A stretch of 64,000 bases of DNA. Source: Vulcanimicrobium alpinum (GTDB taxonomy: Bacteria > Vulcanimicrobiota > Vulcanimicrobiia > Vulcanimicrobiales > Vulcanimicrobiaceae). This document shows positions 3-53,545 of this stretch, piece after piece (within the stretch, counting starts at the first letter, position 1; each line of letters starts with the position of its first letter). The stretch is taken from NCBI RefSeq assembly GCF_027923555.1, contig NZ_AP025523.1:1240001-1304000 (forward strand). The letters are read 5' to 3'. The notes under the pieces were generated by a model that did not search any database, was not told where the DNA came from, and was given only the letters and a program-made list of their open reading frames with translations. A program made the translations under genes and the position numbers.

Positions 3-638
<636 letters not shown>

Positions 639-836: not shown

Positions 837-1622
837 ATGTCTCAACTCACGGTCGGTCAGTACCAGTTCATCTACAACGCCTTCTCGTTTTCGATCGCGA
901 CGATGGGCGCTGCGACGGTATTCTTCTTCCTCGGCCGGGGGCAAGTGTCGAAGGGGTACCGGACGGCGATCACCGTGACCGGACTGGTCACGCTGATCGC
1001 CTTTTATCACTACCTCCGCATCTTCTCGAGTTGGGAAGCCGCGTATTCGGTCGTCAACGGCACGATCCGGGCAACGGGTGCCGCATTCAACGACGCCTAT
1101 CGGTACGTCGATTGGCTTCTGACGGTGCCGCTGCTGCTGATCGAGCTCATCCTGGTGATGAAACTGTCGGGCGCCGAGACGACGGCGAAGGGAACGCGCC
1201 TGGGCGTGCTGGCTGCGATCATGGTCGCACTCGGCTATCCTGGTGAGATCGCCTCGTCGCTCGGAATGCGCTGGATCTTCTGGGTGTTGGCGATGATCCC
1301 GTTCCTCGCGATCGTCATCGAACTCTTCGTCGGGCTGCGTGCGTCGATCGACAAGCAGCCGCAGGAAGTTCGGGGGATGGTCAGCGCCGCGCGATGGATC
1401 ACCGTCCTCTCGTGGTGCTTCTATCCGGTCGTGTACATCTTCCCGATGATCGGTTTCACCGGCGGCGCGGCGACGACCGCGGTGCAGGTCGGCTACACGG
1501 TGGCCGATATCGTCGCGAAGGTCGCCTTCGGCGTCTTCATCTACGTGATCGCGGTGAAGAAGTCGGCCGCGGAGATGCCCGAGGTGCCGCTCACCGTACC
1601 GCGGCTCGTCGACGTCAGCTAG
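837..1622 (+). CDS. Proton-pump type microbial rhodopsin (DTE motif)
   Basis: Seven-helix retinal protein of 261 residues, expected to pump H+ outward across the inner membrane. Helix C reads RYVDWLLTVPLLLIE, giving D92 (acceptor), T96 and E103 (donor), the DTE set of proteorhodopsin/xanthorhodopsin-type pumps. H58 (FYHYL) matches the conserved helix B histidine, L100 sits at the spectral-tuning site (leucine, green-type), and K228 in helix G (DIVAKVAFG) is the Schiff-base lysine with D224 one turn before. W149 falls where carotenoid-antenna rhodopsins have glycine. The frame is open upstream to 654, but ATG 837 was chosen because GGAG at 827-830 is well spaced and the extension has no membrane character. 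The lycopene cyclase gene starts 6 bases after its stop. Confidence 0.95.
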   Translation: MSQLTVGQYQFIYNAFSFSIATMGAATVFFFLGRGQVSKGYRTAITVTGLVTLIAFYHYLRIFSSWEAAYSVVNGTIRATGAAFNDAYRYVDWLLTVPLLLIELILVMKLSGAETTAKGTRLGVLAAIMVALGYPGEIASSLGMRWIFWVLAMIPFLAIVIELFVGLRASIDKQPQEVRGMVSAARWITVLSWCFYPVVYIFPMIGFTGGAATTAVQVGYTVADIVAKVAFGVFIYVIAVKKSAAEMPEVPLTVPRLVDVS

Positions 1623-1628
1623 AACGCC

Positions 1629-2747
1629 GTGCGCGCGGAGATCGCGATCTTGGGCGGCGGCTGCGCCGGCCTGAGCCTCGCACATGCGCTCGCGACCGCG
1701 GACTCCGCGCGTGCGGTGGTCGTCGTCGAACGGCGAACCCAGTACGACGAAGATCGAACCTGGTGCGGTTGGGCGATCGAACCGCATGCTTTCGCCTCGT
1801 GCGTGCGCCGGCGTTGGGACCGCTGGCGCGTCTCGACCGCGGAGGCGCAGCACGAGATCGCGGCCGGGACCATCGCCTACGAGTCGGTCGGTGCCGGTGC
1901 GTTCTATGCGACGGCGCTCGCGAGCGTCGATGCATCGCCTGCAGTGACGCTGCTCGCGGGTGCCGCGGTCGCGGACGTTGCGGAACTCGATGCGTGTTCG
2001 GTCGTCACGCTTAACGACGGCCGGCGTATCGAGGCGCAGTGGGTCATCGACACCCTCCCCCGGCGCCGCGAGCTGACCTACCCGTGGATGTGGCAGAGCT
2101 TCGTCGGCTTCGAACTCGAGGCGCCGGAGGCGGGTGCCGGCGACGTGCCGGACCTGATGGACTTTCGCGTTCCGCAAGCGGACGGCGTGACGTTCCTGTA
2201 CGTGATCCCGTTCGCTCGCGATCGTGCGCTCTTCGAGCTCACCCGATTCGCACCGCAGCGCACTCCGAAACGCGAACTCGAGCGCGCCCTGCGCGTCGAG
2301 CTTGCGCTGCGGTTCCCGCGCGGCTATCGCATCGTCCGGCGCGAGCACGCCGATCTGCCGATGTCGCCCGCCGATCGCCGCGTCGCCGGCCGCCGCATCC
2401 CCGCCGGGATCGCCGGCGGCGCGATGCGGCCGGCGACGGGTTTCGCCTTTCACGCGATTCAGCGCTGGGCGTCACGCTGCGCTGCCGATCTCGTCGCGGG
2501 CCGGTCGCCGCACGCGGCCGCGATGCATCCGGGACTGCTCTGGATGGACCGCGTGTTCATGTCGGTCGTCCGCGACGATCCGCAGCATGCCCCGGAACTC
2601 TATGCGCGGCTGTTCGCTCGGACGTCGCCCGACGCGCTCGTGCGTTTCCTCGCGGGTGCGCCGCGCGTCTCCGACGTCGCCGACGTGGCGGGTGCGCTAC
2701 CGATCGGCCGATTCACTCGCGCCGCCGCGCGTTCGATCGTCGCTTGA
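1629..2747 (+). CDS. crtY: Lycopene beta-cyclase (CrtY type)
   Basis: FAD-dependent cyclase that closes both ends of lycopene to give beta-carotene. The 372 residues begin with a dinucleotide-binding loop (GGGCAGLSLA, residues 9-18), followed by CrtY hallmarks: DRTWC near residue 42, QSFVGFELE, MDFRV, FLYVIPF, and RPATGFAFHAIQRWA toward the C-terminus. GTG 1629 lies 6 bases after the rhodopsin stop, so the two are probably co-transcribed. The product is the substrate for the Blh oxygenase encoded convergently next door; together the three genes cover lycopene to functional holo-rhodopsin. Phytoene synthase and desaturase are not in the window. The last 51 bases overlap the 3' end of blh on the other strand. 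Confidence 0.93.
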   Translation: MRAEIAILGGGCAGLSLAHALATADSARAVVVVERRTQYDEDRTWCGWAIEPHAFASCVRRRWDRWRVSTAEAQHEIAAGTIAYESVGAGAFYATALASVDASPAVTLLAGAAVADVAELDACSVVTLNDGRRIEAQWVIDTLPRRRELTYPWMWQSFVGFELEAPEAGAGDVPDLMDFRVPQADGVTFLYVIPFARDRALFELTRFAPQRTPKRELERALRVELALRFPRGYRIVRREHADLPMSPADRRVAGRRIPAGIAGGAMRPATGFAFHAIQRWASRCAADLVAGRSPHAAAMHPGLLWMDRVFMSVVRDDPQHAPELYARLFARTSPDALVRFLAGAPRVSDVADVAGALPIGRFTRAAARSIVA

Positions 2748-3560
2748 ACGAGCGCGGCGTTCCGCGTACCAGACCGCGGCTTGATGCGGGACCGTCACGC
2801 CCAGCGTCAGCGCGACAAGCACGCGCCGCCGTTCGGCCGGACGCGCCAGCGCGAAGGCCAGCCCCGCGAACGCCGCCGCGAGCGCGGTGTTGCCGGCGGA
2901 CTCGGCGGCGAACTGCATCGACCTCCGGCCAAACGATCCGCCCTGTTCGGCACGCGCCGTGACGATCGCCAGATGGCGGGGTGCATGCCACAGCCCGAAG
3001 TAGGCAGCAAAACCGAGCGGAGCGGGTACTGCCGCCAGCACGCCGGCGGGGACGAGCAGATCCGCCGCTCCAGCGACGTCTCCGCGCGCGATGCGCTCGA
3101 GCACGGCCGCGGCGGCCAGCGTGCACATCACGGTTCGCCGGCCCGTATCGGGACCGCAGAGCGGGATCGCGCCGCGCAGCGCTCCGTCGAGAAGCGACCG
3201 TGCCCGAGCACTCGCCGTGCGGGCGAACGAGGCGTCCCCGCTGCCGAAGTGATACCACGAGAGCAGCGAGAGGGCGCGCGATGCGGTCGCGGGTGCGCGC
3301 CATGCTGCCGCTGCGACGCCGATCGTCGCCGCGCCGTACGCCGCGGAGATTGCGGCGAGCCCGCCCGGGAAGCGCGGCAGCAGCCGCGCGAGGATCCGGT
3401 CGTCGCTCGCTCCGTGCGCGATGCCGATCGTGCCGATCGCGAATCCCGCGAGCGCGCGCGCCGCCGCGGGCGAGACGCGCGCGAGCAGGGCGGCCGCCGG
3501 CAGCATGATCCACGTGGCGGTGCGCGTTCCGCGCACGATCGCGCGAGCGTCATCGGTCAT
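2697..3560 (-). CDS. blh: Beta-carotene 15,15'-dioxygenase, Brp/Blh family
   Basis: Membrane-bound oxygenase of 287 residues that cleaves beta-carotene into two retinals. Family histidines that bind the iron are all visible: H49 in GIAHGASDD, H104 in SWYHFGSGD, H192 and H196 in YFGLWHAPRH, and H259 in GVTVPHQ. Several hydrophobic helices separate them. It faces the rhodopsin-crtY pair and overlaps crtY by 51 bases tail to tail, so it needs its own promoter. ATG 3560 is the only one of four nearby ATGs in frame; the others are generated by a 14-base tandem repeat over the start region. Assignment is strong from motifs and context. Confidence 0.93.
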   Translation of the reverse strand: MTDDARAIVRGTRTATWIMLPAAALLARVSPAAARALAGFAIGTIGIAHGASDDRILARLLPRFPGGLAAISAAYGAATIGVAAAAWRAPATASRALSLLSWYHFGSGDASFARTASARARSLLDGALRGAIPLCGPDTGRRTVMCTLAAAAVLERIARGDVAGAADLLVPAGVLAAVPAPLGFAAYFGLWHAPRHLAIVTARAEQGGSFGRRSMQFAAESAGNTALAAAFAGLAFALARPAERRRVLVALTLGVTVPHQAAVWYAERRARSSDDRTRGGASESADR

Positions 3561-3592
3561 CGGTCGTCGGTCATCGGTCGTCGGTCATCGAC
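3551..3592. repeat. 14-bp tandem repeat spanning the blh start codon
   Basis: About two full copies plus partial copies of the unit CATCGGTCGTCGGT run through the 5' end of blh. Each unit carries an ATG on the minus strand (ATGs at 3588, 3574, 3560 and 3553). Because 14 is not a multiple of three, only the ATG at 3560 is in the blh frame. Gain or loss of a unit would change which ATG is in frame. Confidence 0.8.
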
Positions 3593-3645
3593 ACATCCCT
3601 CCCTTCCGTAGACGCCGAGAAACCCGCAGCCGCGTCGGGGCGCCG

Positions 3646-6304: not shown

Positions 6305-7582
6305 ATGAGAATCCTCGTCGTCGGCGGCGGCGCCCGCGAAGATGCGTTGTCGTGGCGGCTTGCCGCGTCGCCCTCGTGCGACGCGCTTTTCCACGCGCCG
6401 GGCAACGCCGGCACCGCGAGCCGCGGTGAAAACTGGAGCGACGTCGCCGCGACCGACGCGCGCACGCTCGTGCGCCGCGCACAAGAGGCGCGGATCGACC
6501 TCGTCGTGCTGGGACCGGAGACGGCGATCGCCGCTGGTGTCGGCGACAAACTGCGCGATGCGGGGATCGCGGTGTTCGGACCCAATCGCGGCGGCGGGCG
6601 CCTTGAAACGAGCAAGGTCTTCGCGAAGCGCTTCATGGAGCGCCACGGCATCCCGAGTGCGCGCTTTCGCGTCGTGCACAATCTCGATCAAGCGCGGCGC
6701 GCACTCGAGGCGTGGAGCGGCGCCGCGGTGGTGAAAGCCGACGGACTGGCCGCCGGCAAAGGCGTCGTCGTGTGCGATGGTGCGGCCGACGCGCTGACGG
6801 TGCTCACCGGCTGGTATACCGGGAACGCGATCCCCGGCGGCGGTCAGGACGTCGTGATCGAACAGCGGCTCGCGGGCCGAGAAGTCAGCGTGTTCGCGAT
6901 CGCCGACGGGCGCGCGATGGTTCCGATCGCCGCGGCATGCGATTACAAACGCGCCGGCGACGACGACAAGGGGCCCAATACCGGCGGGATGGGCGCGTAT
7001 TCGCCGCCGGCGCTCTTCGGCGACGACCTGCTCGACGTCGTGCGGGAACGCGTCGTCGCGCCGGCGTTGCGCGGGCTGCTCGCCGAGGGCGAAGAGTACC
7101 GCGGCGTGCTCTACTGCGGGCTGATGATGACCGACGACGGCCCCTACGTAATCGAGTTCAATGCCCGGTTTGGCGATCCCGAGACGCAAGTGCTCGTGCC
7201 GCGCGTCAACGGCGACTTCGCACGTTATCTGAAATCCGCCGCCGACGGCGCGCTCGAGATCGACGCCGCGACGTGGTCGGACGACGCGTGCGTCGGCGTC
7301 GTGCTGGCGACGTCGCGCTATCCGTACGAGAACACGCCGGTGCGCGGCCTTCCCGCCGAACTCGGTCTGGCAGGCGACGTCGTTGCATTCTGGGGGACGT
7401 CGTCGCGCGAGGACGACGGCACGGTGACGTCGCCGGGCGGCCGCGTCCTCACGGTTGCCGCGCGCGGCGCGAACGTCGGCGTCGCGCGCGCGCACGCGTA
7501 TGCCGCAATCGACGGTCTGAAGGCGCGGTTTCCGAGCGGGACGCCGCTCGCGTACCGCTCCGACATCGCGCGCCTGCCGTAA
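6305..7582 (+). CDS. purD: Phosphoribosylamine-glycine ligase
   Basis: GAR synthetase, second step of de novo purine synthesis: phosphoribosylamine, glycine and ATP give GAR. It is full length (425 residues). The N-terminal domain starts RILVVGGGAREDALSWRL, the ATP-grasp domain shows VVKADGLAAGKGVVVC and the GPNTGGMGAYSPP signature, and the metal/ATP site ends in IEFNARFGDPETQ. The C-terminal domain completes the enzyme. It lies downstream of an unrelated hydrolase and is convergent with a membrane-protein gene. Other purine genes (guaA, purF, purM, purN) lie within 12 kb either side, but not in one operon. Confidence 0.96.
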   Translation: MRILVVGGGAREDALSWRLAASPSCDALFHAPGNAGTASRGENWSDVAATDARTLVRRAQEARIDLVVLGPETAIAAGVGDKLRDAGIAVFGPNRGGGRLETSKVFAKRFMERHGIPSARFRVVHNLDQARRALEAWSGAAVVKADGLAAGKGVVVCDGAADALTVLTGWYTGNAIPGGGQDVVIEQRLAGREVSVFAIADGRAMVPIAAACDYKRAGDDDKGPNTGGMGAYSPPALFGDDLLDVVRERVVAPALRGLLAEGEEYRGVLYCGLMMTDDGPYVIEFNARFGDPETQVLVPRVNGDFARYLKSAADGALEIDAATWSDDACVGVVLATSRYPYENTPVRGLPAELGLAGDVVAFWGTSSREDDGTVTSPGGRVLTVAARGANVGVARAHAYAAIDGLKARFPSGTPLAYRSDIARLP

Positions 7583-7639: not shown

Positions 7640-8872
7640 TTACGTGCCGGTTCGGACGAAGGTGTTCCAGTACCAGACACCCCATGCGCCGACGAGCGCG
7701 GACCACACGATGAGCGCGATCCCCCAGCGCGGGAGTTTTTCGCGTACGCCCAGCGCCATCAAGGCGAACAGGAACGGCAGGAAATCCAGCGCGTGGCGCA
7801 TCCCGAACTGCACCCAGCCGTTGAGATAGTAAAGGAACTCGGGCGCGGCGACGAGGGCCGTCGTGATCCACAGCGCGACGACGAGCCGGCGCGGCTCCTT
7901 CGCGAGAAACGCGAGCACGAGCGCGGGGCTGGTGAAGGTGAGCGCGATCCCGTTCGTGTCGGGCTTGACGTAGGGCCACTGCGCTTTCTGTAGCCACTCG
8001 ACCAGCACAGGTGCGCGGAAGAAGAACGAGTAGATCTGATACGGCACGTATCCGAGCTGAAACGGCGAGCCTTCCGGCGAGCCCCAGCTGTCCTGGTGAT
8101 AGTAGACGGTGTGGCCGATGTCGAGCACCGTCCCCCACATCAGTTCGTCGTAGCCGACGAAGACCGCCGCCGCTGCGACGAGCACGATCGCAAACCCGCG
8201 CACGTGCGCGATGCGCGTTTCGCGCGTCGGCGTCATGCCGCCCAGCGCGCCGGTCCACAGCGCCCACGCGAAGAACGGAAACGCGGCGACCTCGACGAAC
8301 CGCGCGCCGGCCGCGAGCACCGCACACAGCGCGACGATCCAGCCGCGCGATTTCCCGCTCAGCTCGACCATTGCGCCGAAGACGAACGCCATCGCGACGA
8401 GATGCGCGAGGAACCACACGTCGCCGAGCTGCGCGCACCACCACACATCGGTGCCGGCGGCCAGGAAGAGCGCCAGGAAGAACAGCGTCGTGCGGTCCTT
8501 GACGCCGAGCCGCTCCGCCAGCACCCAGGCGAGCCCCGTCGCTGCCGCGGCGAACGCGATCGCGACCAGCGTCTGGTTCGCGGCGTTCCCCCAGATCGCG
8601 ACGAACGGAAGCATGAAGAGCGCCGGCACCGGCCCGTCGACGCCGTAGTAGTGGCCCTGATACTGGACCGCGTCCATCCAACGCCCCGGCCAGTCGATCC
8701 ACATCCGGCCGTGCAGCCACGCATACGCGACCCGCACGTAGTTGTTCTGGTGGGTGGAGCGCAGGTGCGAACTGACCAGGATGACGAGAAAGGCAACCGC
8801 GGCGGCAACGGCTGCACCCGGGATGCGCCGCAGAGCCACCGCCGCTGCCCGAGTTCGAGACGCGGCGACCAT
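7640..8872 (-). CDS. Polytopic membrane protein, GT-C glycosyltransferase-like
   Basis: About 410 residues with roughly ten hydrophobic segments. A loop after the first membrane span reads HQNNYVRVAYAWLHG and GHYYGVDGPVPALFMLPF, which resembles the first periplasmic loop of GT-C (PMT/ArnT-like) glycosyltransferases, including acidic residues there (MWIDWPGRW, GVDGP). This suggests a lipid-linked sugar transferase in the inner membrane, but the family assignment is by resemblance only. ATG 8872 was preferred to the longer frame reaching 8947, because the latter would overlap the ribosome-binding site and start of the divergent Bax-inhibitor gene. It is convergent with purD. No partner genes for surface polysaccharide synthesis are nearby. 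Confidence 0.6.
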   Translation of the reverse strand: MVAASRTRAAAVALRRIPGAAVAAAVAFLVILVSSHLRSTHQNNYVRVAYAWLHGRMWIDWPGRWMDAVQYQGHYYGVDGPVPALFMLPFVAIWGNAANQTLVAIAFAAAATGLAWVLAERLGVKDRTTLFFLALFLAAGTDVWWCAQLGDVWFLAHLVAMAFVFGAMVELSGKSRGWIVALCAVLAAGARFVEVAAFPFFAWALWTGALGGMTPTRETRIAHVRGFAIVLVAAAAVFVGYDELMWGTVLDIGHTVYYHQDSWGSPEGSPFQLGYVPYQIYSFFFRAPVLVEWLQKAQWPYVKPDTNGIALTFTSPALVLAFLAKEPRRLVVALWITTALVAAPEFLYYLNGWVQFGMRHALDFLPFLFALMALGVREKLPRWGIALIVWSALVGAWGVWYWNTFVRTGT

Positions 8873-8934
8873 CGTTGGGGCGTCGGTTCTGCCGCCCGAA
8901 ACCCGAACCCCGCCGGACCGGTAGAGAGGAACGC

Positions 8935-9609
8935 ATGTACCAGTCACGTTCTCAGCAGCCTCGCGGCGCGTACGGTTACGGGCCGCCGGCGGTCAGCACG
9001 CCCGCGCTCCTCGGCCAAGTCCTCGGGATCACCGGGGTCGGCTTCCTGCTCACGGCGCTGGCCGCGTACCTCTTCGCGGGGATCTCGCCGGGGCTCGGCT
9101 TCGCCGCGTTCATCGGCGCGTTCGTCCTGCTTTTCGTGATGTCGGCGGTGCGCGGCAATCCGCGCACCGCGCTGCTCGTCTTCTACGCCTTCGCGTTCCT
9201 CGAGGGGATCGGGCTCGCGCCGACGATCGCACGCTACGTCAGCCTCATCGGCCCCGGACAGGTCGCCGAGGCCGCCGCGACCACCGGCTTCGGGATGCTG
9301 GTGCTGGGCGGCGTCGCGTTCGTGTTCTCGATCGACTGGCGGCGTTTCTCCGGGCTCGCGTTCGGGTTGCTGATCGCGCTCCTGATCGTCGGCGTGATTT
9401 CGGCGTTTACGCACTTCCTGCACCCGGGCGTCTACGCGTGGCTGACGCTGGGGGTGTTCACGCTGATCACGCTGGTCGACTTCAGTCGCATCCGCGCCGG
9501 CGGCGACGGCGCGACGCCGGTCGAATTGGCGGTCTCGATCTACCTCGACGCGATCAACATCTTCATCGCGCTCCTCCAGCTCTTCGGCTTGCGCTCGCGC
9601 GACGACTGA
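8935..9609 (+). CDS. Bax inhibitor-1 / YccA family membrane protein
   Basis: A 224-residue protein with seven predicted membrane segments. The C-terminal part carries the family signature IYLDAINIFIALLQLFG, and the N-terminus is short, soluble and Gln/Gly/Tyr-rich. Members of this family (YbhL, YccA, BsYetJ) are inner-membrane proteins linked to calcium leak or to modulation of FtsH; which applies here is not readable. ATG 8935 has a good ribosome-binding site (GAGAGGA at 8923-8929). It precedes purF by 53 bases on the same strand and may be co-transcribed with it. Confidence 0.9.
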   Translation: MYQSRSQQPRGAYGYGPPAVSTPALLGQVLGITGVGFLLTALAAYLFAGISPGLGFAAFIGAFVLLFVMSAVRGNPRTALLVFYAFAFLEGIGLAPTIARYVSLIGPGQVAEAAATTGFGMLVLGGVAFVFSIDWRRFSGLAFGLLIALLIVGVISAFTHFLHPGVYAWLTLGVFTLITLVDFSRIRAGGDGATPVELAVSIYLDAINIFIALLQLFGLRSRDD

Positions 9610-12390: not shown

Positions 12391-14173
12391 GCGAGCTCGG
12401 GTGCGAACGGAATCGTCCCCTCCCAGCGTCCCGCGGTCGAACCGCCGAACTGTTTCGGCGGCGTTCGCATCCTGCTGACGAGCCGCGTCGTCCCGAACGT
12501 CGCCGGCGTCGCGGCCCAGTCGGTCGCCGGATTGGATGCACCCGCGGCCGCGGCGCTGTTCCGGCGCAGCGCGTCGCGTCAGCGAGTGCGTCTTCTCGAC
12601 GATGCAGAGAGCGATGCCCTGATCGTCGAAATATGCGCGCGTCTGCGCGGGAATCCGCTCGCGATCGAGGTTGCGGCGGCCCGGCTGGACGTCACGTCGC
12701 TGCGAGCGTTGGCGCGTGCGCTCGAGAGCAGCGCGCTCTTCACCGCGCGCGGACGCCGCGAGGAGCGTCAAGGTTCGGCGGCGGCGTCGGTGGCATGGAG
12801 CTGCGCCGGCCTCGATACGCGCGGCAACGCCGCGCTCGAAAGTTTGGGGGCGTTCGCATCGTCGGCGTCGGTTGACGCGTTCGCCGCCGTCCTCGGGACG
12901 GAGAAGCCGGACGCGCTCGACGCGGCGGGCGTGCTGCGCGATCATCATCTCGCCGAGCGCGCGGGCGACGCGGACGGCGATCGTATCCGTCTCTTCGACG
13001 TCGTGCGAGAGGTCATCGCCGACGATCCGGCGCGTGCCGGATCGCGGGAAGTGCGCGCGCGGCGCCACTGGAACTATTATCTCGACCTCGCCAAACGCAT
13101 CGACCGCCGGTCTTCCGCCGAGGATGAAGCCGAACTCGACGGCGTCGCGCGCACGGAGATCGATGAGTTTCGCCGAGCGCTCGAACGTGCCGAACGCCGC
13201 AGCGACGCCGATGGCGTCCTGCGTTTGGCGGCGCGGTTGCGCTACGTGTGGCAGTCATCCTCGACACCGGATGAGGCGTGCGGCTGGATCGAGCGCAGTC
13301 TGCCCGTCGCCGCAGACGGCGGCGTCGTCGAGGCCGAAGCCCTGCTGGTGCTCGCCGCGGCGGCGACGAACCGCAGTGAACCCGAGCGCGCCGCCGCATA
13401 CCTCGATCGCGCGTTCGCGTGTGAGATCGCTGAACCGCGTACCCTCGCGCTGCTGCACCACGAACGGGTGCGGCTCAGTTCGCACACGGGGGACGTCGCG
13501 CTGTGCGAGCGCAGCGTCGCGGATGCCGAACGCTGCTCACGGCTCGCCGGCAGCGATCACCTTACCGCCAACGCCGCGGTGGCCCGCGGTGTGTTCCTTG
13601 CCCGTCTGCGCGACGATCGGCGCGGCGCGATCGCAGAGTTTCGCCGCGGTCTGCTGCTGCACCGGCGGACGCGCTGCTGCATCCGCGGCGCGATCCTGGC
13701 ACTCGTGAATCTCGGCGCCGCCTATCGCGAGGGCGACCGGTGTGCGCTCGCGCTGCACCATCTCGACGAGGCGTGCGATCTGGCCGCCGGCCTCGGCATC
13801 CGCTATCTGCGCGGCCTTGCGCGAATCTATCGCGGACAGACGCACACGCGACCGGGGACGTACGTGCGGCCGTACGCGATCGCGCCGCCGGCGCGGCCGA
13901 CGCGTGCGCAACCAGACCGCCTTCCTGTTTCGCGACGGTATCGTGAGCGCGACCGACGCGCTGCTCGCGCTGGGCAACGCGGCGGCGGCGGCGACGGCTC
14001 TGGGCGTGTTTGCAGCCGACGCCGACGATCCCGAATCGCTCCGCGAAGACGAGCGCCGGCTTCGCATCACCGCAGCGCTCGGCGCCGACGGGTTCGACGC
14101 CGCGTACGACCGCGGATTCTTTTTCAGCCCGTTGCAGCGGCTGGCGTTCCTCGACGAACTCGCTCGCGACTGA
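12391..14173 (+). pseudogene. Remnant of NB-ARC/TPR (AfsR/LuxR-type) regulator
   Basis: C-terminal part of a large signal-transduction ATPase. From 12391 the frame reads FGGVRILLTSRVVPN, the ATPase sensor strand, then GNPLAIEVAAARLDV of the winged-helix region, and about 400 residues of alpha-helical TPR-like repeats. The P-loop, Walker B and any DNA-binding domain are absent, and there is a stop at 12388-12390. No start precedes the conserved core. Around 13830-13905 the frame shifts by one, so the last part (RNQTAFLFRDGIVSATDALL to FLDELARD) lies in the next frame and ends at 14173. Both lesions make this a pseudogene. Some proteins could still be made from TTG 12532, but they would lack the motor. 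Confidence 0.75.
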
Positions 14174-14246
14174 CCCTGCGGTCGGAAAGGGACCAGGCCG
14201 TGCCGGAGAGTCGGAACCCCGACAAAAGTCGCGGCGTCCGACTGGC

Positions 14247-14327
14247 ATGGAATACGCACTCGCGCTCATCCCCGCCCTCATCGGCGCCGGCTTCGTCGCG
14301 ACCCGCATCGCCTCGCGCGACCGCTAG
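14247..14327 (+). CDS. Possible 26-residue membrane peptide
   Basis: MEYALALIPALIGAGFVATR followed by IASRDR: one hydrophobic helix with a positively charged tail, a form seen in small regulatory membrane peptides. There is no clear ribosome-binding site and it follows a pseudogene. Treat as a candidate only. Confidence 0.3.
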   Translation: MEYALALIPALIGAGFVATRIASRDR

Positions 14328-14440
14328 CGGGCGCGCGCGAACTCGGCGGGCTCCGGCGGATCGGGTTCCGTCACGGGGGCTCGCGGCTCACCTTCGGGAT
14401 CGTTGGGCTCCGGAACGACGGGGGCGGATTCAGGATGCAT
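14324..14440 (-). CDS. Possible 38-residue Pro/Glu-rich peptide
   Basis: A short frame from ATG 14440 gives an acidic, proline-rich, disordered peptide (about ten prolines and eight acidic residues). No ribosome-binding site is visible. It may be chance in GC-rich DNA. The rest of the 14174-14575 stretch holds the small plus-strand frame and the inverted repeat. Confidence 0.2.
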   Translation of the reverse strand: MHPESAPVVPEPNDPEGEPRAPVTEPDPPEPAEFARAR

Positions 14441-14466
14441 GCTGCACACCGTACCCGTCCTTCGCA

Positions 14467-14565
14467 GTCACGCTGAGCTTGTCGAAGCGTCGCGCCGATC
14501 GCGTCCGCCGGCCGCCGCCGCGCAACCGCCGCGATGGCGGCTGCGCTTCGACAGGCTCAGCGTGA
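14467..14565. repeat. REP-like inverted repeat, copy 1
   Basis: Left arm core CTGAGCTTGTCGAAGCG at 14474-14490 and right arm CGCTTCGACAGGCTCAGCG at 14544-14562, separated by about 54 bases. The arms are near-perfect complements. Copies 2 and 3 are at 41619-41693 and 49959-50032. It sits at the pepA 3' end. Confidence 0.85.
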
Positions 14566-14575
14566 AACGACAGGC

Positions 14576-16120
14576 TTAGCGCGACGTTGCGGTTTCTTTT
14601 GCGGTGACGCCGTTGGCGGTGACGCCGTTCGTCGAGAAGCCGTGCTTGGCGAGATCTTCGACGATGGTGACGAACGCGCGGACCGGCGTTCCCGTCGGGC
14701 CCTTCGCCGAATACGGCGACTCGCTGTCCAGATAGGCGGTGCCGGCGACGTCGAGGTGGATCCACGGGACGTCGTCGGCGAACGCCTTGAGAAATGCGCC
14801 GGCCGTCTCCGCGCCGCCGGCGCGGCCGCCGGTGTTCTTCAGGTCGGCGATCTCGCTCTTGATCTGCGTGTCGAAGTCCGGATAGAGCGGGAGCTGCCAG
14901 TAGCGCTCGCCGCAGTCTTCGACGACGCGCAGGAAGCGCTCGACGAACGCCTTGTCGTTCGTCATCGTTCCGCTCGCCGCATGACCGAGCGCGACGACGC
15001 ATGCGCCGGTGAGCGTGGCGGCGTCGATGATCTTGGTCGCGCCGAGCTCTCGCGCGTAGCAGAGCGCGTCGGCGAGGATGAGCCGCCCTTCGGCGTCGGT
15101 GTTGATGACTTCGATCGTCTTGCCGTTCATCGCGCGCAGGATGTCGCCCGGCTTCATCGCGCGCGGTCCGGGCAGGTTCTCCGACGACGGCACGAGACCG
15201 ATCACGTTGAGCTTCGGACGGAGTTTCCCGATCGCCCACATCGCCGCGATCACGCCGGCACCGCCGGACATGTCGTACTTCATCTCGTGCATGTTCTCGG
15301 CCGGCTTGATCGAGATGCCGCCGGAATCGAACGTCAGCCCTTTGCCGACCAGCGCGAGGATCTCGTTCGACGACGGATCGCCTTTGTAGGTCATCACGCT
15401 GAGCGTCGCCGGTTCGTCGGAACCGCGCGAGACGCCGAGCAGCGAGCCCATCCCCTTCGCGCGCATGCGGTCTTCGTCGAGTACGTCGATCTCGAGGCCG
15501 GCGTCGGCCGCGAGTTCCTTCGCGCGGTTGGCGAGGTGGGTCGGCGTCATGTCGTTGGCCGGCGTGAGCGCGAGCGTACGCGCCGTGTTCACCGCGTGGC
15601 CGATCGTCCCGCCGCGCAGCGCGCCCGCTTCGAGTGCGGAGCGATCGTAAGAACCGGCGACGATCGTGACCGCCTCTGTGAGAACGGGACGGTCGGCTTC
15701 GCTGCGGTACAGCGTCGTGTCGATCAGCCCGGCGTGCGCACCCTCAGCGACGAACGACGCCGCGAGCGCCGCATCGACGCCGCCCGGCAGCGCGATCGCG
15801 ATCTGCCGGACGCCGCGCTTGCCGAGGTACCGCACCGCGGTCCCCGCGTACTTCGCCAGACCGCTGGCGGTGAATTTCGCGCGGTCGCCGAGGCCGACGA
15901 CCAGCACGCGCCCGAACGGCGTGCCTTTCGCGTGCAGCAGCGACGTCTCGTTCGCTTTGCCGGCGATCTCGCCGTTTGCGATCACCTCGGCGATCGCGCC
16001 GTCGAGGGCGCGGTCGACGTCGGCCGCGGCGCCGTCGAGCGCGTCGCCGGTGAAGACCGGTACGACGAGCGCGCCGGTCGCGATCGACGCCGCAGCTTCG
16101 GTCGAGACGTGAACCTGCAT
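14576..16120 (-). CDS. pepA: Leucyl aminopeptidase (M17)
   Basis: Cytosolic two-zinc aminopeptidase of 514 residues that removes N-terminal residues from peptides. The C-terminal catalytic domain shows VGKGLTFDSGGISIKP (metal-binding Lys and Asp) and the family signature NTDAEGRLILADAL (Asp and Glu ligands). The N-terminal domain is typical of the family. ATG 16120 is fixed by a GGAGG about 5 bases upstream. An open frame continues far upstream antisense to purM but has no protein-like sequence. It is divergent from purM with about 90 bases between. Confidence 0.95.
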   Translation of the reverse strand: MQVHVSTEAAASIATGALVVPVFTGDALDGAAADVDRALDGAIAEVIANGEIAGKANETSLLHAKGTPFGRVLVVGLGDRAKFTASGLAKYAGTAVRYLGKRGVRQIAIALPGGVDAALAASFVAEGAHAGLIDTTLYRSEADRPVLTEAVTIVAGSYDRSALEAGALRGGTIGHAVNTARTLALTPANDMTPTHLANRAKELAADAGLEIDVLDEDRMRAKGMGSLLGVSRGSDEPATLSVMTYKGDPSSNEILALVGKGLTFDSGGISIKPAENMHEMKYDMSGGAGVIAAMWAIGKLRPKLNVIGLVPSSENLPGPRAMKPGDILRAMNGKTIEVINTDAEGRLILADALCYARELGATKIIDAATLTGACVVALGHAASGTMTNDKAFVERFLRVVEDCGERYWQLPLYPDFDTQIKSEIADLKNTGGRAGGAETAGAFLKAFADDVPWIHLDVAGTAYLDSESPYSAKGPTGTPVRAFVTIVEDLAKHGFSTNGVTANGVTAKETATSR

Positions 16121-50057: not shown

Positions 50058-52208
<2,151 letters not shown>

Positions 52209-52235
52209 CAAAGGTCCTTTACGACACAAAGAAAG

Positions 52236-52252: not shown

Positions 52253-52345
52253 GCTTCGAACGGTCCTGCGTTTAGCGCCGTCGGACCGCTGTCCTTTGCC
52301 GCCGTAACGGGCATCACCGCATCGGTGCGCGAAGGCCCCGGCCGC

Positions 52346-53545
52346 ATGGAGTCGACCGAGTTCCTCGTCGTTGGCTGCGGACCGGCCGGGGGGACGGCCG
52401 CACGTGAGGCGGCTCGCCGGGGGATTGCAACCGTCGTGCTCGAGCGCGATCCGATCGTCGGAGCCAAGCGCGTCTGCGCCGCCGGCTTGCGGCCCGGCTT
52501 CTGCGAGGAGTTCGATCTCCCGCGCTCGATCGTGCACCTCGACCCATCGACGATCACGCTGACGACCGTCAAGCGGACGTACGCCTTCAAGGTCGGCCCG
52601 TCGCACACGACGACGCGCGAGGAACTCGACGGCACGATCGGCGCGCTGGCCCGCGGCGAGGGCGCCGAGATCCGGACCAGCACGCTCTTTCGCGGGCTGC
52701 GCCGCGACGGCGACCAGGTCGTCGTCGAGTACGCAGACATGAAGGAAGGAACCCGCAAGGCGATTCGCGCGCGCTCCGTCTTCCTCGCGCAGGGCTCGAG
52801 CGCACGCCTCGACGATGTCGAGCCGCGCTTTCGCCACCCCGCTTGGGCCGACGGGCTCATCACCTGTTTTCAGTACCGCGTCTATCCCGAGCGGCCGGCG
52901 GCGGAGCGCACGTACGACACGCTCGAGATGCACTACTACGTGAGCCCGCTCTCGGGCCGCAACGTGATCGCGTGGATGTTCCCCAAGCGCGACCATCTGG
53001 CGATCGGGCTGGGGATTCAAGCGAAGGTCGCCGGCGCGGCGCTGCGTGCCGAACTCGACGCCTTTCTCGTCACCGTCCGGCAGCGGCTCTTCGCGGGGAT
53101 TCCGTACACCGTGCGCGAGGAGGGCAACCTGCTCTACGGCGGCCTCCCGCGCGTGACGATCGGTGCCGACAACGTGATGGTGGGCGGCACGGCGGCAGGC
53201 CTGGTCGATGCGACGACCGGCGAGGGGATTCACGAGGCGGCGACCAGCGGGCGTTATGCTGCCGAGGCAGCGGCAACCGTGCACGCCGGAGGCGCGCGCG
53301 ACGCGGCGCCCGGCTACGCGCGCGCGGTCCGGCGCGCGTTCTACGGCCGCCTGCGTCATCGCGCGCGGCTGATGACCGTGCTCGAACGCAAGCCCGTGCG
53401 CTTCGACATCCTGTTCCGTCAGCTCGAAGAGACGCCGCGTTTCGCGGCGCTGCTGCAGCGCGACCGCAACGACTTCACCCCGCTGGAGTGGCTGTATCTG
53501 TACGCGCAGGCGGCCAAGTTCGGGCTCTCCGCGCTGCGCGCATAG
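52346..53545 (+). CDS. Geranylgeranyl reductase family flavoprotein
   Basis: A 399-residue FAD protein of the geranylgeranyl reductase/digeranylgeranylglycerophospholipid reductase family. It opens FLVVGCGPAGGTAAREAARR, has VCAAGLRPGF as the conserved substrate-side Cys/Gly block, and GGTAAGLVDATTGEGIHEAA as the C-terminal FAD motif. It would saturate isoprenoid chains of lipids, quinones or pigments; the exact acceptor is unknown. ATG 52346 is used; GTG 52325 is the alternative. It is divergent from hppA. Confidence 0.88.
   Translation: MESTEFLVVGCGPAGGTAAREAARRGIATVVLERDPIVGAKRVCAAGLRPGFCEEFDLPRSIVHLDPSTITLTTVKRTYAFKVGPSHTTTREELDGTIGALARGEGAEIRTSTLFRGLRRDGDQVVVEYADMKEGTRKAIRARSVFLAQGSSARLDDVEPRFRHPAWADGLITCFQYRVYPERPAAERTYDTLEMHYYVSPLSGRNVIAWMFPKRDHLAIGLGIQAKVAGAALRAELDAFLVTVRQRLFAGIPYTVREEGNLLYGGLPRVTIGADNVMVGGTAAGLVDATTGEGIHEAATSGRYAAEAAATVHAGGARDAAPGYARAVRRAFYGRLRHRARLMTVLERKPVRFDILFRQLEETPRFAALLQRDRNDFTPLEWLYLYAQAAKFGLSALRA

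Follow-up and report, generated by a model that had tools for sequence, protein, structure and literature searches.

Dual phototrophy has been described or predicted for Alphaproteobacteria (PMC7701988, PMC7762795, PMC13043013) and for Myxococcota (PMC10576062), and Roseiflexus is cited as a further example in PMC7701988. Among the rhodopsins, the subgroup II xanthorhodopsins were defined by a difference at the antenna position of xanthorhodopsin (XR; Vollmers et al. 2013, PMC3646047). Trp at the XR Gly156 position abolishes keto-carotenoid binding; the Octadecabacter members carry Gly there, unlike most of subgroup II, and were shown to acidify the medium in the light, with an absorption maximum near 535 nm (PMC3646047).

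Vulcanimicrobium alpinum WC8-2 is an aerobic anoxygenic phototroph (AAP) from an Antarctic fumarolic ice cave, which produces bacteriochlorophyll (BChl) a as well as carotenoids with peaks at 476, 502 and 541 nm (PMC9758169). Light improves its growth, an effect that the authors credited to BChl, and the cells move toward light of 470, 527 and 624 nm (PMC9758169). Its rhodopsin, WPS_12390, received one mention from the describers, who suggested that it may be a photoreceptor, left its function unidentified, and listed it together with a PYP homologue as candidate phototaxis receptors (PMC9758169). A 2025 review treats V. alpinum as an AAP only and names Sphingomonas AAP5 for dual photosynthesis; we found no statement of dual phototrophy in Vulcanimicrobium in the literature searched.

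We analyzed a 64,000-nt window of the WC8-2 genome, which is one closed contig of 3,508,363 bp (phylum Eremiobacterota/Vulcanimicrobiota). An initial annotation, made from the sequence of the window, had described a cluster of rhodopsin, crtY and blh at 837–3560 and raised the possibility of an Eremiobacterota host. The DNA is that of V. alpinum WC8-2, with consistent gene content, and the cluster is real: the coordinates are exact and all three genes are matched by Pfam, with E-values far beyond chance (Table 1). A profile search of the whole contig returned one Bac_rhodopsin match only, therefore WPS_12390 is the rhodopsin of this cluster. We propose, with a probability of about 0.72, that the cluster is a retinal-based phototrophy cassette in a host with a type-II reaction center, i.e., that V. 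alpinum is a dual phototroph in which lycopene would be converted via β-carotene to retinal for a proton-exporting rhodopsin.

Table 1 Features of the cassette, the borders of its site and the carotenoid genes linked to the reaction center in V. alpinum WC8-2 (window coordinates unless stated).
Feature	Position	Strand	Evidence
guaA 3' part (GMP synthase), left border of variable site	33–638	+	PF00958 2.8e-42; synteny
Xanthorhodopsin (subgroup II type), 261 aa	837–1622	+	PF01036 1.9e-39; ATG start
CrtY-type lycopene cyclase, 372 aa	1629–2747	+	PF05834 7.8e-51; GTG start
Brp/Blh-type β-carotene 15,15'-dioxygenase, 287 aa, divergent	2697–3560	-	PF15461 7.5e-21; TIGR03753 3e-22; ATG 3560
blh leader: SD-like run (3608–3597) and two micro-ORFs encoding MTDDR and a stop (3588–3571, 3574–3557)	3557–3608	-	read from sequence
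purD, right border of variable site	6305–7582	+	PF01071/PF02844; synteny
puf cytochrome, pufM, pufL, then crtB, PDS-type desaturase	L015 3600–11225 = genome 2.5696–2.5772 Mb		

The rhodopsin ATG is preceded by a GGAG, and crtY starts 6 nt past the rhodopsin stop. The crtY and blh genes are convergent and their 3' ends share 51 nt (2697–2747), a detail absent from the initial annotation. None of the three frames is interrupted, and each of the proteins retains its conserved residues. The third-position G + C of the cassette genes (0.82–0.86) is near that of neighboring genes; the rhodopsin has an overall G + C of 0.62, against 0.67–0.74 in its neighbors, with a third-position value of 0.86 that is similar to theirs. 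A scan for promoters and terminators across the cassette found nothing, and a search for direct or inverted repeats marking an insertion gave only GC-rich, chance-like pairs. At the start of blh, a 14-nt tandem repeat creates the two micro-ORFs, in which each stop overlaps the next ATG (ATGA) and the last ATG is that of blh, and the SD-like run fits the first micro-ORF. These micro-ORFs could couple or limit Blh translation.

The rhodopsin has the DTE motif noted in the initial annotation, as D92 (acceptor), T96 and E103 (donor), together with H58 as the acceptor partner, L100 for green tuning and K228 as the retinal lysine. The nearest solved chains are psXR, Gloeobacter rhodopsin (GR), XR and Kin4B8, and H58, D92, T96 and E103 are common to all of these. 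We compared 84 relatives and references: the six residues, L100 and K228 included, agree with the four solved references and with 79/80 relatives from public genomes, the one exception being a truncated match which ends before the lysine position. The AlphaFold model (pLDDT of 90.7) has seven helices, with psXR and XR as the closest folds (TM-score on the query of 0.90–0.92). At the XR Gly156 position, where Gly makes room for the ring of the carotenoid antenna, the protein has Trp149. We rejected a carotenoid-antenna xanthorhodopsin (subgroup I) on this residue.

Phylogenies of the rhodopsin and of Blh had been proposed as checks in the initial annotation. The rhodopsin tree places the protein in a clade of 61 rows that all have Trp at the antenna position (support 91). 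The closest relatives are 70–73% identical and come from Glaciimonas, other Oxalobacteraceae, Acidobacteriota and others. A contig labeled as a Klebsiella pneumoniae metagenome bin (L037) encodes a xanthorhodopsin that groups with Burkholderiales-type ones, and the label is probably wrong. Judged by its sequence, the protein is an antenna-less xanthorhodopsin of subgroup II, in a tree which contained no formally assigned subgroup II sequence. From the kept pump residues, Trp149, the subgroup II precedent and the model fold, it is expected to act as a green-light proton pump without an antenna. The pump-type sequence predicted initially is therefore borne out.

The describers hinted at a sensory role, with the rhodopsin guiding phototaxis instead of conserving energy as a pump. 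This reading draws on the movement of WC8-2 toward three wavelengths and on the listing of the rhodopsin beside the PYP homologue (PMC9758169). However, all of the pump residues are present, including the carboxylate donor E103, and close relatives sit in pump operons. There is also no transducer among the identified flanking genes (guaA, crtY, blh, a solute-binding protein, an AspA-like hydrolase and purD), and a green pump near 535 nm would be a poor explanation of the response at 624 nm. We consider a photoreceptor role unlikely, and favor the pump.

The two enzymes of the predicted retinal branch are divergent members of their families, since their NCBIfam matches lie below the curated cut-offs: CrtY falls well below those of TIGR01789/01790 despite its Pfam score, and Blh, which passes the PF15461 cut-off, falls below that of TIGR03753. 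CrtY is the sole strong lycopene-cyclase match in the genome. It keeps 44/50 columns that are conserved among 48 CrtYs of XR loci, including E203 of an L-x-E-x-T stretch, and so has the FAD motif and cyclase residues looked for in a CrtY, consistent with the cyclase assigned initially. Blh keeps the metal-ligand histidines of the family (H49, H104, H192, H196 and H259), is confidently modeled (pLDDT of 88.1) and is the only Blh in the genome, adjoining the only rhodopsin and the only strong lycopene cyclase. The retinal-forming oxygenase of the initial annotation is thus upheld as a putative, divergent Brp/Blh family member. Neither a sequence search nor a fold search found a related solved structure for Blh. 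XR-linked Blhs share a median identity of 29% with one another and of 21% with the V. alpinum Blh, and the Blh tree places the latter in a deep, separate two-member lineage with a 44% identical Blh from another genome of the phylum (G024, support 100). No plasmid-borne relatives of it were found. In most relatives XR, crtY and blh cluster together. Blh was found at 58/80 relative loci, always on the strand of the rhodopsin, as is CrtY at XR loci (48/48), whereas the V. alpinum blh is on the opposite strand.

The initial annotation had called the cluster self-contained and had named a lack of lycopene synthesis genes as the result that would count against it. The cyclase and oxygenase are indeed at the locus, but the lycopene genes are not, which makes the term too strong; candidate genes for lycopene synthesis do lie elsewhere in the genome, so the adverse result did not arise. 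We found crtB (phytoene synthase, best NCBIfam match cyanobacterial CrtB) at 2.575 Mb in the genome, about 3 kb from pufL, pufM and the reaction-center cytochrome, and beside it a relative of the plant-type (PDS-type) 15-cis-phytoene desaturase. This pair lies ~1.33 Mb from the cassette, with the cassette at 1.24 Mb and pufL, pufM, the cytochrome and crtB at 2.57 Mb. The genome has no canonical CrtI above the TIGR02734 cut-off (best 95.5 vs 238.1 bits), so that the search yielded crtB with a PDS-type desaturase in place of CrtI. A CrtD/carotenoid-isomerase-like protein is encoded at 1.043 Mb and a CrtO-like protein at 1.109 Mb. We also considered crtB and the desaturase as HpnC/HpnE of hopanoid synthesis. 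This is disfavored by their better CrtB and phytoene-desaturase scores and by the proximity of pufLM, and it is unlikely because a separate squalene synthase adjoins the squalene-hopene cyclase. The pair is linked to puf genes in two other genomes of the phylum (G025 and G038) and crtB is so linked in a third (G012) as well; this linkage of carotenoid and reaction-center genes is kept across genera. The three carotenoid peaks of WC8-2 indicate desaturation at least to the lycopene level, therefore lycopene is probably available in the host. Since canonical CrtI is missing, we infer its supply through the PDS-type desaturase.

Thus, reaction-center genes and the rhodopsin/retinal gene set are present in one closed genome, the combination of genes by which dual phototrophy is recognized. 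We propose that lycopene from the carotenoid pathway serving the photosystem would be diverted by CrtY to β-carotene, which Blh would cleave to retinal. With the cassette expressed in the host, retinal would bind K228 of the Trp149 xanthorhodopsin, which in green light would export protons and add to the pmf from respiration and the BChl photosystem.

We surveyed 149 genomes of the phylum for PF01036 rhodopsins, PF15461 Blhs and type-II reaction centers. Rhodopsin was found in two genomes (V. alpinum, G000, and G017), Blh in two (G000 and G024) and the reaction center in six (G000, G012, G017, G024, G025 and G038). All three carriers of rhodopsin or Blh sit among the six reaction-center genomes; the chance of such an overlap under random placement is 3.7e-5 by genome, 3.7e-4 by genera of the phylum and 2.4e-3 by genera of the family, values which are indicative only given shared ancestry. 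The coding sequence of the rhodopsin in G017 is scattered over three frames, and the crtY next to it is missing about 110 codons (L019, contig C290, about 13400–14880, - strand). This broken pair looks like decay, with assembly error as the alternative source of the frameshifts. The G017 rhodopsin also has Trp at the antenna position and is sister to that of V. alpinum, with support that is not decisive (93/89), and no Blh was found in its genome. Some 2 kb beyond the remnant, on its downstream side, is a photolyase gene. G024 carries the Blh-like gene (L169, contig C149, 6433–7272, - strand) and a reaction center, with no rhodopsin detected in the 91% complete genome. In G038, pufM is split into two frames (L172, contig C266, about 8590–9506), through assembly error or reaction-center decay. 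The ten congeners have no rhodopsin, Blh or reaction center. A heliorhodopsin search of the six reaction-center genomes gave no match, but it gave none in the control genomes either, so this result does not speak for absence.

The initial annotation had read the cassette as adding light-driven pumping to the energy supply of the group, alongside an H+-PPase at 50 kb. The gene is of the pump type, but the group at large lacks the cassette (rhodopsin in 2/149 genomes) and the host is already a BChl phototroph; reaction-center phototrophy supplemented by a second light-energy system is the better reading. The H+-PPase gene is real (50058–52229, - strand) and nothing in this analysis connects it to the cassette. 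Beside it is a gene of the geranylgeranyl-reductase (BchP/ChlP-like) family (52325–53545, + strand).

The site of the cassette was examined using guaA as the synteny marker; the solute-binding gene was set aside as it has too many paralogues in the congeners. The guaA gene was found in 8/10 congeners, followed by purD in those examined. In one congener (G009) purD follows directly, and the interval between the two genes varies among the others examined, where it holds, e.g., an AMP-dependent ligase or a metallo-β-lactamase-fold protein. In V. alpinum it holds the rhodopsin, crtY, blh, the solute-binding protein and the AspA-like hydrolase. Thus, the cassette occupies a variable site, which could reflect either gain in the V. 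alpinum lineage or loss in the congeners. The rhodopsin-crtY pair is probably of lateral origin, and shares the site with a Blh of separate ancestry.

A rare and patchy cassette of this kind could instead be a recent acquisition or a decaying relic that forms no functional holo-rhodopsin, as suggested by the frame-broken rhodopsin and shortened crtY of G017, the divergent and oppositely oriented Blh, and the absence of CrtI above the cut-off. Against this, all three V. alpinum frames are open with their conserved residues retained, and their third-position G + C is near that of the neighboring genes, such that we regard a relic as improbable, slightly more so than a photoreceptor. Least probable is that CrtY and Blh are there to make cyclic carotenoids or an apocarotenoid product, with the rhodopsin as an incidental neighbor, a reading for which the Blh of G024 in a genome with no rhodopsin found might speak, since the three genes cluster in most relatives and are adjacent single copies in V. 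alpinum. Returning to the retinal cassette as the preferred reading, we tentatively suggest, at somewhat less than even odds, that the module is an accessory of reaction-center phototrophs alone in this phylum. Early phototrophs of the family might already have combined both systems, having joined a laterally acquired rhodopsin-crtY pair to a Blh from a separate lineage of deep divergence. Piecemeal loss might now be under way: G017 retains a broken pair, G024 a Blh but no detected rhodopsin, and V. alpinum alone an apparently intact set.

With these results, one more phylum joins those for which dual phototrophy is predicted, represented by a cultured strain whose genome is closed. A gene that had been listed as a photoreceptor of unidentified function becomes a proton-pump candidate that can be tested. 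The light-stimulated growth of WC8-2 and its phototaxis to blue, green and red light can now be apportioned to two light systems. Because the rhodopsin and Blh genes of the phylum were found only in reaction-center carriers, why a rhodopsin is kept in lineages that already have a reaction center also becomes a testable question.

Comparison with the described systems indicates that every part of the cassette is of a known kind; the novelty lies in finding the retinal module complete in this lineage and confined to reaction-center carriers, and in a Blh that is both divergent and inverted. The rhodopsin resembles subgroup II xanthorhodopsins of the Octadecabacter type in family, DTE motif, green-tuning Leu and, for most members, Trp at the XR Gly156 position (PMC3646047). 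It differs in the phylum of its host and in having as its sister a broken copy from another reaction-center carrier of the family. Sphingomonas glacialis AAP5 and glacial Tardiphaga (PMC7762795, PMC7701988) are likewise cold-environment bacteria with a type-II reaction center and a xanthorhodopsin with its own retinal synthesis, whereas V. alpinum belongs to another phylum and has a deeply branching reaction center. The AAP5 xanthorhodopsin retains the antenna glycine where V. alpinum has Trp, and Tardiphaga has a contiguous XR-crtEIBY-brp array with mobile elements on its flanks, whereas in V. alpinum only crtY and blh accompany the rhodopsin, with blh inverted. The same three genes form the XR-crtY-brp operons of marine dual-phototrophic Rhodospirillales (PMC13043013), compared to which the V. 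alpinum blh runs against its rhodopsin gene and belongs to a separate, deeply branching lineage, the Blhs of relatives being on the rhodopsin strand in 58/58 cases. Myxococcota of the Kuafubacteria are also predicted to combine a BChl photosystem, a rhodopsin and Blh outside Pseudomonadota (PMC10576062); that prediction comes from metagenome-assembled genomes, whereas V. alpinum is a cultured strain with a closed genome.
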